Of a stretch of DNA of 64,000 nucleotides, positions 28,930 through 31,544 are shown one piece after another. The stretch is from the NCBI GenBank assembly GCA_937929915.1, contig CALFUN010000007.1:62001-126000 (forward strand), in the 5' to 3' direction. Every line of letters begins with the position of its first letter. The stretch's first letter is position 1. Under the pieces are notes generated by a model, which did no database searches, was not told where the DNA came from, and worked only from the letters and a program-made list of their open reading frames with translations. This DNA is from an uncultured Caulobacterales bacterium. Its GTDB lineage: Bacteria > Pseudomonadota > Alphaproteobacteria > Caulobacterales > Maricaulaceae. The translations under genes were made by a program, and so were the position numbers.

Positions 28930-29490
28930 TTAATCACGGCGAAACGCATCTTGTAAGCGGTTCATTTGGTCAGCCACAGTATTGCCAGCTTGCGCTGCGA
29001 TTGTGCCGTATAATGAGCGGTCAAGGCGCATTATGCGCTCATATAATGTTTCAGATCGAGCCAATAAATCAAGTAAGCGCGCGGGCAAAGCATAGGCCGT
29101 TTTGGCCAGTTCAGAAAAGCTTAAACCTTCATCAGGCTTCACATCCTCTACAAGACGGTATTTCTCGGCCTGAACCTCTGTTAGGCTCATTTCGCCCTCT
29201 TTTAAGGCCCGCTGCACGAGCAACCAGCTTGCAACTTGCATCAACCGCGTCGTCAGGCGCATAGACTGGCTCGCATAGGTTAAAGCATCATCACGACCCA
29301 ATTTTTTACTGTCTTGGCGTCCTGGGCCGTCCAAATAAGCCGCAGTTTCCTCAACCATATCCATACCTTCTCTAAAGGTTTTCGCAAAAAGCTCTGACCG
29401 TGTGAATTCTAGCAATCTGGCTTCGGCTTGTGCTGTAAGGGTAGCTGACATGAGAGATGAATTCTGTTGCGAGGTAGGATGTGTATTCAT
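28930..29490 (-). CDS. rcdA: Regulator of CtrA degradation (DUF1465)
   Basis: 186 aa. In Caulobacter, RcdA is the cell-cycle adaptor that, with CpdR and PopA, brings CtrA to ClpXP at the pole. Family blocks: REGMDMVEETAAYLDGPGR and SMRLTTRLMQVASWLL, followed by the EGEMSLTEVQAEKYRL loop. The C-terminus is a long polar helix (TVADQMNRLQDAFRRD). The ATG at 29490 has agagag upstream; the internal ATG at 29451 has no ribosome site. It runs in the same direction as the DUF1192 gene, 124 bases downstream of it, and divergent from trcR. Confidence 0.92.
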   Translation of the reverse strand: MNTHPTSQQNSSLMSATLTAQAEARLLEFTRSELFAKTFREGMDMVEETAAYLDGPGRQDSKKLGRDDALTYASQSMRLTTRLMQVASWLLVQRALKEGEMSLTEVQAEKYRLVEDVKPDEGLSFSELAKTAYALPARLLDLLARSETLYERIMRLDRSLYGTIAAQAGNTVADQMNRLQDAFRRD

Positions 29491-29614
29491 TTGGCTCTCT
29501 TTTCAGGACATATTTATTATTTGCAAGGCTATTTGCAAGCACAAGGCCAAATCGAACCATTATTGTTAATTATTTCATTTTAATGCAGATAAAGACACGC
29601 TTTACCTTAAAAAT

Positions 29615-29806
29615 TTATGAGGATTTTTTAAATAAAGCATCGGCCGCGCTGCGCTCTGATGTTTTTTTGGCAAGCTCAGCTTCTAAACGAATAATCTCGG
29701 AGCGATAATCTTCAATACGCTGTTGTAATTCATGCACAGATAGGCCGTATAAATCCTCGCCTAAAGTGGGCTGCGCTATCATTTTTCGGGGTAAATTTTC
29801 ATCCAT
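29615..29806 (-). CDS. DUF1192 small protein
   Basis: 63 aa. The DUF1192 core LYGLSVHELQQRIEDYRSEI is followed by a short coiled coil (IIRLEAELAKKTSERSAADALF). This small acidic/helical protein commonly neighbours rcdA in alphaproteobacteria. Function unknown. The coiled coil suggests it works as a partner protein. Transcribed with rcdA. Confidence 0.88.
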   Translation of the reverse strand: MDENLPRKMIAQPTLGEDLYGLSVHELQQRIEDYRSEIIRLEAELAKKTSERSAADALFKKSS

Positions 29807-29875
29807 ATCAGTCTCATTTTCATAAATTCATATCTTTATACAATATATGTTACACATCCGTAGCTATCTCAAAGC

Positions 29876-29904
29876 TTGCCAAAGCCCTCTTAACCTTGTA
29901 AAGA
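29876..29904 (+). promoter_or_regulatory. Candidate trcR promoter
   Basis: TTGCCA (29876-29881) and TAAAGA (29899-29904) are separated by 17 bases, which puts the transcription start near 29911, just before the first leader hairpin. The match to sigma-70 hexamers is moderate and unconfirmed. Confidence 0.35.
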
Positions 29905-29912
29905 CCATATTG

Positions 29913-29961
29913 TCGATAGGGGTTCACTATCGATAGTAACCCCGCCGAGCGGGGTTTTTTT
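29913..29961 (+). promoter_or_regulatory. Attenuator-like three-hairpin leader of trcR
   Basis: Three mutually exclusive stems overlap in order. P1: TCGATAG (29913-29919) with CTATCGA (29927-29933). P2: GGGGTT-c-ACTA with TAGT-AACCCC (29919-29943). P3: AACCCCGC (29938-29945) with GCGGGGTT (29949-29956), followed by seven T to 29961, an intrinsic terminator on the plus strand. P1 excludes P2 and P2 excludes P3, the logic of a transcription attenuator. The terminator lies 24 bases before the trcR ATG and no other rightward gene ends here. Alternative readings: the terminator of a short RNA starting near 29911, or a plain terminator. Confidence 0.6.
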
Positions 29962-29985
29962 AATGCCTAAATTTAGGGGCCTATT

Positions 29986-30663
29986 ATGACACAAATTTTA
30001 ATGCCAAAAGCCACAGCGGTTTGGTTAATTGACAACACCGCTATGACATTCAAACAAATTAGCGAATTTTGCACGCTCCATATTCTTGAAGTCGAAGGCA
30101 TCGCGGACGGTGATGTCGCAGCGGGCATCCGCGGGGCCGATCCGATTGCCAATGGACAGGTCAGCCGTGAAGAAATTGAAAAAGCGGAAGCTGATCCAAA
30201 TTATGCGATGAAATCTAATAAATTTGACAGTGATACACGCATGACGAAACAGTCAAAGAAAAAAGGGCCGCGCTATACACCATTATCGCGCCGCCAAGAT
30301 CGCCCTGACGCGATTGCTTGGATTGTTCGTAACCATCCTGAAATTACAGATGCGCAAATCTCAAAACTTATCGGCACAACAAAACCTACAATTAAATCTA
30401 TCCGTGAACGCACCCATTGGAAAATCAGCATGATTAATCCAACCGATCCTGTGTCCCTGGGGTTATGCACCCAGATTGATCTGGATAGACTCGTTGCCAA
30501 AGCCGCTGAGAAAAAAGCGAAAATGGAAGAAGAGGCAAAGAAAGGCCTTGAAGATGGGGACAGCCTCACCCCTCTTGAAACGCCGAAAGTGGCCGAAGAA
30601 GCCGCTGAAACTGAAAAAGTTGAACATACGCTAGAAAGCTTGTTTAAACCCTCAGGTGAATAA
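29986..30663 (+). CDS. trcR: Cell-cycle transcriptional regulator, DUF1013 family
   Basis: 225 aa. DUF1013 end to end: LMPKATAVWLIDNTAMTF, then KKKGPRYTPLSRRQDRPDAI and a helix-turn-helix-like block DAQISKLIGTTKPTIKSIRE (about residues 122-141), then PVSLGLCTQIDLDRL. The C-terminus is a charged coiled tail (KKAKMEEEAKKGLEDGD). The family is annotated as the TrcR cell-cycle regulator of alphaproteobacteria; I rely on memory for that name. agggg lies six bases before the ATG. It is preceded by the leader structure and followed by its own terminator. Confidence 0.9.
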   Translation: MTQILMPKATAVWLIDNTAMTFKQISEFCTLHILEVEGIADGDVAAGIRGADPIANGQVSREEIEKAEADPNYAMKSNKFDSDTRMTKQSKKKGPRYTPLSRRQDRPDAIAWIVRNHPEITDAQISKLIGTTKPTIKSIRERTHWKISMINPTDPVSLGLCTQIDLDRLVAKAAEKKAKMEEEAKKGLEDGDSLTPLETPKVAEEAAETEKVEHTLESLFKPSGE

Positions 30664-30691
30664 GCCGTACATTACCTAGCTCTATAACCAA

Positions 30692-30724
30692 ATCCGCCTT
30701 GCCCAGTGTGTTAGGCGGTTTTTT
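30692..30724 (+). terminator. Terminator of trcR
   Basis: CCGCCT (30694-30699) pairs with AGGCGG (30713-30718) and is followed by six T. It lies 30 bases after the trcR stop, so trcR is a single-gene transcript. Confidence 0.85.
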
Positions 30725-30731
30725 GTGACGT

Positions 30732-31544
30732 CTACACATCCTGTTTTAATGGCATTTGGTAATTGAGTGCGAGGCGGCCTCCATCAGCGTAAATATGCTG
30801 CCCTGTAATATAGCTCGCATCTTCTGAGAGCAAAAATGCGGCAACCGAGGCAATTTCCTCAGCTTGTCCGATGCGGCCAAGCGGTGTGCGCGCATAGATT
30901 TTATCCAGCGCGGCCTCATCACCAACGACGCCTGCAAGCATATTTGTCTTAATCGACCCAGGCCCAATACCATTGACACGTATACCATATGGCGCGAGTT
31001 CTAAGGCCATAGCTTTGGTCATCTGCTTTAATCCGCCTTTCGAGACTGTATAGGCCAGATAATCCGCTATCGCGACCGTATCATTAATCGAAGACATATT
31101 CACAATCGCATAAGGTCGGTCTGTCAGGCGTGAGCGGTCTTCACGGCTTTCTATTTCTTTGACCATATACCGCGCCACCGCTTTGGATAAAAGAAACGCC
31201 CCGCGCAGATTGACCGCTAGAACACGGTCAAAATTCTCAACAGATAAATCTAACGCTCCGCCCTCAAGCGCAATGCCTGCATTATTAATGAGGCCGTCAA
31301 TTCGGCCAAATGCACCTAATGTTTCGGCAACGAGATTATGTACGGCTAGCGGCTCTGATACGTCACATTCGACAAAAATAGCGCGCTCTGTTTCGGCCGC
31401 AAGGTCGCGCCCCGCCCTCTTGCCTAATGCGGCATCCATATCCGCTAAAACAACATTATGCCCATCATCTATGAGCCGCTGGGCACAGGCCAAACCAATA
31501 CCGCGCGCTGCGCCAGTGACAATATATACGCGATCTGATGACAT
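30732..31544 (-). CDS. Short-chain dehydrogenase/reductase
   Basis: 270 aa, classical SDR. Cofactor loop TGAARGIG (11-18), LADMD (an Asp after the second strand, favouring NAD), NNAGIA, and the catalytic Ser/Tyr/Lys in NMSSINDTVAIADYLAYTVSKGG taken as Ser, Tyr-x3-Lys. The C-terminal SYITGQHIYADGG is typical of FabG-like or glucose dehydrogenase-like enzymes. An insertion (residues about 125-140, EIESREDRSRLTDR) is longer than usual. Substrate unknown. Convergent with trcR. Confidence 0.9.
   Translation of the reverse strand: MSSDRVYIVTGAARGIGLACAQRLIDDGHNVVLADMDAALGKRAGRDLAAETERAIFVECDVSEPLAVHNLVAETLGAFGRIDGLINNAGIALEGGALDLSVENFDRVLAVNLRGAFLLSKAVARYMVKEIESREDRSRLTDRPYAIVNMSSINDTVAIADYLAYTVSKGGLKQMTKAMALELAPYGIRVNGIGPGSIKTNMLAGVVGDEAALDKIYARTPLGRIGQAEEIASVAAFLLSEDASYITGQHIYADGGRLALNYQMPLKQDV

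Follow-up and report, generated by a model that had tools for sequence, protein, structure and literature searches.

A conserved predicted terminator behind a 5' hairpin in the leader of the polymerase-associated factor gene trcR

Results

The window, by which we mean the whole 64,000-nucleotide stretch of DNA analysed from an uncultured Caulobacterales bacterium, carries on its forward strand the gene for the RNA-polymerase-associated factor TrcR (29986-30663, 225 aa, with its ATG at 29986), which matches PF06242 (TrcR) with an E-value of 4.1e-63. Upstream of it, a DUF1192 gene (29615-29806), the neighbour of trcR, and a DUF1465 gene (28930-29490) both lie on the reverse strand. The forward strand ahead of trcR holds what looks like a leader, in which a promoter comes first, a 5' hairpin and an intrinsic terminator follow, and the ribosome site stands last before the gene.

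The candidate promoter consists of TTGCCA (29876-29881) and TAAAGA (29899-29904), separated by a 17-nt spacer on the forward strand, and would place the RNA start at about 29911, right before the 5' hairpin and in agreement with the original prediction, though the -10 (TAAAGA) is weak. This site does not appear in the output of a promoter scan of 29000-31500; a CTTG-type -35 is repeated across most of the clade-A leaders that we compared by eye. An insulating terminator with the trcR promoter downstream of it is not favoured, since the gap between terminator and start codon is only 21-29 nt in several genomes (G033, G058, G049, G023, G046, G037, G038 and G000, among others), leaving little room for a promoter there.

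Three hairpins, P1, P2 and P3, stand on the forward strand at the coordinates where they had been predicted. P1, the 5' hairpin, pairs TCGATAG (29913-29919) with CTATCGA (29927-29933) as its core, and weak pairs extend it to 29908-29938. P2 (29919-29943) is an alternative hairpin of this genome, pairing GGGGTT (29919-29924) with AACCCC (29938-29943), and is not conserved. P3 (29938-29961) has the form of an intrinsic terminator, in which 29938-29945 pairs with 29949-29956 as an 8-bp stem around a CGA loop, with a run of seven T (29955-29961) that shares two of its letters with the stem. Folding of 29905-29965 gives P1 plus P3 with an energy of -26.9 kcal/mol (z -5.9), which none of 200 shuffles reaches. 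At the 5' arm of P1 (window 29910-29919), near-palindromic TTGTCGATA-like letters recur in G003, G005, G014, G017 and G018, and these could be a protein site in the DNA.

A generic terminator scan is uninformative for 29000-31500, with three terminators found and 3.0 expected in shuffles. A likely trcR 3' terminator, seen by eye on the forward strand at 30694-30724 (CCGCCT, a 13-nt loop, AGGCGG and six T), is missing from the output of the terminator scan, which limits loops to 8. We describe P3 by a stricter rule, namely a G-C-closed stem of -9 kcal/mol or lower with at least five T in the next 8 nt, at most 110 nt upstream of the gene.

We located trcR in 97 of 100 relatives and read all 97 upstream regions. 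Identical upstream stretches suggest that the window's family (f1) contains Hellea, Litorimonas, Algimonas, Robiginitomaculum and Euryhalocaulis, that f2 contains Henriciella, and that f4 contains Aquidulcibacter and Phycosocius; judged by similar leaders, f3 would be Caulobacteraceae-like and f5 Parvularculaceae-like. A terminator that passes the strict rule stands upstream of trcR in 51 of the 57 genomes of the window's family, and in 1/10 of f2, 0/10 of f3, 3/10 of f4 and 0/10 of f5, so that any control by termination would not be order-wide. In other orders it is found in 1 of 39 upstream regions, a set hand-picked from the top of the listing of 224 class genomes with a TrcR match (241 searched), in which two regions have short contig ends and matches beginning at residues 2-5 place up to 12 nt of the gene inside the scanned stretch. 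Within the window, one of 53 crudely called genes has such a terminator, and that gene is trcR. The pattern CCCCGCNNAGCGGGGTTTTT occurs at one place in the window's own genome, and the window's form of the terminator, allowing up to three mismatches, at one place in the window; we reject the reading of P3 as a generic terminator sequence.

The six genomes of the family that miss the strict rule still show, on inspection by eye, a hairpin followed by T-rich letters, and they miss through a weak stem (G032), an interrupted T tract (G057), a distance of 95 nt from the start (G053) or a mismatched stem (G039, G050 and G059). Eighty further trcR loci comprise 34 duplicates of the main set and 46 new loci, of which 18 pass; all 18 belong to Hellea, Robiginitomaculum or uncultured Caulobacterales, and most of those that do not pass come from other families. 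Among these, L148, L184, L185 and L193 combine a T run with a stem that contains mismatches. The terminator is also present in Litorimonas cladophorae and Hellea balneolensis (L145 and L158).

Hairpins of -12 kcal/mol or lower, which we call strong, are present in 52/57 genomes of the window's family, in all ten of f2 and all ten of f3, in 8/10 of f4 and 6/10 of f5, in 10 of the 39 regions from other orders and in 1 of the 53 window genes. On this sequence comparison the hairpin is kept by most of the order, and the T tract is mainly confined to the window's family.

For the counts of P3 pair types, leader folding, P2 complementarity and ATG codons we left out hairpins weaker than -8 kcal/mol, namely 3/57 in the window's family (G039, G050 and G059), 2/10 in f4 and 1/10 in f5. 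That 324 of 324 P3 positions are paired is not itself evidence, because the stems were chosen for pairing. The types of pair are more telling: across the family each of the six outer positions shows more than one type with pairing kept, and at stem position 4, for example, the 54 leaders have CG in 33, GC in 12, AT in 6, TG in 2 and TA in 1. Conservation of this stem among relatives, on which the original prediction had staked itself, is thus borne out for P3.

In f2 and f3 (for example L083 and L059) the GC-rich hairpin before trcR, present in 10/10 and 10/10, nearly always lacks a T tract and is followed by CTGCATTT- or GTTTCTGG-like letters; in f3 it lies near the predicted 5' end. In L021 and L023 (G014 and G035), letters upstream of P3 and letters beyond the T tract can, by eye, pair with each other and so enclose the terminator, as CTAGAGGC with GCCTCTAG in G035.

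The terminator does not depend on what lies upstream. By regular expression, the upstream neighbour in the window's family is divergent and DUF1465-like in 33/57 genomes, codirectional with a GKILL-type end in 21/57 and neither in 3/57; one codirectional neighbour protein (G024) matches zinc-binding dehydrogenase families. Its presence with both neighbour orientations rules out P3 as the terminator of an upstream gene and assigns it to trcR. The expectation that it can only act on a trcR leader or a short RNA is supported, as it is in the window itself, where the DUF1192 gene is on the other strand.

We compared the folding of the 48 nt before P3 with dinucleotide shuffles, counting a leader when p <= 0.05. 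In the window's family 24 of 54 leaders fold better than their shuffles; the mean z is -1.51, and it is negative in 15 of 18 genera. Among control segments taken from the window the count is 9 of 104, with a mean z of -0.32. The corresponding counts are 3/8 in f4 and 2/9 in f5, and the signal is absent from f2 (1/10) and f3 (1/10).

Covariation in P1 was examined in two clades chosen by eye. In eight alignable close relatives the covariation score is 0.170 against 0.080 in shuffles, none of 500 of which scores as high, with shared ancestry uncorrected. Double changes occur at four pairs (18/500 shuffles as high), further pair types are unremarkable (75/500), and P3 is invariant in this set. 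The second clade comprises 15 of the 18 genomes with an AAATC element (G020, G037 and G051 were left out), aligned by anchoring on the flanking AAATC and (T/C)CGG letters. There, 110 of 120 P1 arm positions pair, where re-dealt arms average 72.5 and reach at most 95 in 5000 trials, again with shared ancestry uncorrected. The covariation check proposed for P1 as a 5' hairpin thus comes out in its favour in both clades.

P2 fares differently. Its stand-alone energy in the window (-10.6 kcal/mol) matches that of P1 (-10.9), and at equilibrium it is favoured when the RNA ends at about 29946-29950 (probability 0.99 at 29950). Its probability is near zero once the RNA reaches 29953, and with P3 complete the combination of P1 and P3 is ahead of the P2 state by about 9 kcal/mol (-24.3 vs -14.9). 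Across the family, six bases able to pair with the outer arm of the terminator are found in 2 of 54 leaders (G000 and G027) where 3.54 are expected, with 186 of 200 shuffles as high, and the energy of the leader-to-arm duplex beats shuffles (p <= 0.05) in 2/54, the window (G000) among them at p = 0.035. P2 is ruled out as a conserved antiterminator and is at most a feature of this genome. In relatives, the complementarity behind the proposal that P1 allows the terminator and P2 prevents it is no commoner than chance. Our comparison does not support the three-hairpin switch, and the predicted leader terminator itself is real and conserved.

When we looked through leaders by eye, no reading frame stood out between the predicted start and the terminator. 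Beyond the T tract, 29 of 54 leaders have an ATG no more than 15 nt from the stem, against a background of 0.18, but these ATGs spread over all three frames (11 in frame with trcR, 8 and 10 in the other two), and we reject a coding upstream reading frame after the T tract as improbable on that account. Where a stop overlaps the start codon of trcR in one of the frames, this is a trivial consequence of ATGA. The letters AATGSC are common right after the T tract in leaders of the window (29962-29974) and its clade-A relatives. Downstream of the terminator, AGGGG (29975-29979, forward strand) is the ribosome site of trcR as judged from sequence. It had been suggested to compete for the CCCC of P3, an idea that does not carry over to the family, where most leaders have, by eye, GGAGG-like sites unlike the AGGGG of the window.

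A covariance model built from eight relatives, with the window excluded, returns the window's leader (29905-29962) as its top match in its own genome at an E-value of 1.9e-4, the next-best match there having 0.154. The 60 genomes searched include 28 of the family that lie outside the training set; at E <= 1 it recovers the trcR leader in 10 of these, missing many leaders of the family. It also matches other places, one at 8.6e-4 in G025; all of these E-values are rough. Rfam gives no match on the leader in window 29500-30800 or in 20 relative loci, and a literature search of titles and abstracts returned no description of a trcR leader.

Genes for other elongation and termination factors were considered in the same genome. 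The rho gene has no comparable terminator upstream, so termination-factor genes of this genome do not carry a leader terminator as a rule. The GreA_GreB and NusG families have no match in G000, a 92%-complete assembly, most likely reflecting missing contigs.

Discussion

We propose, with a probability of about 0.6, that trcR is preceded by a promoter-hairpin-terminator leader that its transcription must read through, with read-through set by the polymerase and, by analogy, fed back on by TrcR. Transcription would begin just 5' of P1, and P1 and then P3 would be made within the first 50 nt or so. Most transcripts would probably stop at about 29956-29961, giving a short RNA of about 45-51 nt, and trcR mRNA would come only from read-through; trcR output would thus probably depend on how often polymerase passes the leader terminator. 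P1 probably shields P3 from interference by upstream RNA or protects the 5' end. Because no antiterminator is conserved, the extent of read-through would most likely depend on the state in which the elongating polymerase arrives, and not on an RNA switch. TrcR is reportedly, according to a 2021 PNAS paper, a factor that acts in elongation. Since TrcR tracks with RNA polymerase, the leading idea is that it may exert feedback on the leader of its own gene, in the manner of GreA and GraL; we infer both the termination itself and any part of TrcR in it. A further step, in which TrcR senses polymerase behaviour at its own leader terminator and thereby sets its own level, with the short RNA possibly also acting in trans, is a tentative extension to which we give somewhat less than even odds.

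The proposal has precedents. TrcR has been described as an RNA-polymerase-associated factor in the parts of the literature consulted here (PMC12864828, PMC10754441). The nearest parallel is GraL, the leader of E. coli greA, for which the cited account gives about one third read-through and has GreA repressing its own gene via the leader (PMC6829880). As in GraL, the gene downstream of the trcR leader encodes a polymerase-associated factor (PF06242 TrcR), and an intrinsic terminator lies in a short 5' UTR near the start; a short terminated RNA is reported for GraL in that account and predicted for trcR. The differences are that GraL has about 19 nt before its terminator and, in the passages of PMC6829880 used here, no hairpin of the P1 type is described, whereas the trcR leader has P1. 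TrcR is, moreover, unrelated to GreA, and both termination and feedback at trcR would be by analogy with GraL.

The rimP-leader, which precedes rimP-nusA-infB operons, offers a second comparison. The relevant part of PMC2965389 describes a conserved terminator mostly without a visible antiterminator and proposes a termination protein such as NusA, and it shares with the trcR leader a conserved terminator stem before transcription-factor genes. The arms are reversed in base composition (GGGc...gCCC in the rimP-leader vs CCCCG...CGGGG before trcR), and the rimP-leader belongs to another gene family, is found in Firmicutes and Gammaproteobacteria and, in that part of the source, has no such 5' hairpin described. 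In the broad sense in which the same passage speaks of attenuators, the trcR leader would be a premature-terminator leader, with a predicted terminator before a single gene family in 51/57 genomes. Closer in phylogeny is UpsM, which the cited portion of PMC5089854 presents as a short RNA from the 5' UTR of the dcw cell-division gene cluster of Rhodobacter sphaeroides; like the trcR leader it is an alphaproteobacterial Rho-independent leader terminator, but its UTR is 268 nt long and it serves other genes in the Rhodobacteraceae. Given these leader terminators before greA, rimP-nusA and the division cluster, as the parts of PMC6829880, PMC2965389 and PMC5089854 that we cite describe them, the original prediction of a new kind of control overstates the case.

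Among the competing readings, a trans-acting sRNA gene that shares the promoter, with termination yielding the sRNA and trcR read-through secondary, is unlikely. Short stable RNAs are laid out in this way, with a start followed by a 5' hairpin and a terminator, and for GraL and UpsM the cited passages report or propose action in trans (PMC6829880; PMC5089854), but every instance we examined sits before trcR, and the letters of P1 and the linker diverge strongly between clades while the structure stays, so that we see no broadly conserved seed. We regard as rather improbable a fixed damper, a constitutive partial terminator with a 5' hairpin that lowers trcR expression free of regulation. It would fit the lack of any conserved sensor domain or antiterminator and the fact that other families manage without the T tract; the terminator and P1 nevertheless persist through divergence and changes of the upstream gene, which, as an argument, would come at a cost if a damper were all they provided, since a weaker promoter could do the same. 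A classic attenuator, in which P2 is in competition with the other two hairpins and a signal selects it to block termination, is very improbable, because the window's own P2, with its matched energy, brief advantage at intermediate RNA lengths and duplex, has to be set against chance-level complements in relatives, the roughly 9 kcal/mol lead of the completed P1 and P3, and the failure to notice an upstream reading frame by eye or find a known ligand motif.

TrcR connects RNA polymerase with the cell cycle and antibiotic tolerance in alphaproteobacteria, and our literature search found no description of how its level is set. The family-wide leader terminator, with its covarying 5' hairpin, offers a concrete candidate control point for trcR. 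It also adds a third, unrelated family of polymerase-associated genes, after greA and rimP-nusA, to the pattern in which genes for elongation or termination factors keep a terminator in their own leader. If the self-sensing extension is true, the trcR leader would be an elongation-factor leader that is read by its own product, here a cell-cycle regulator.
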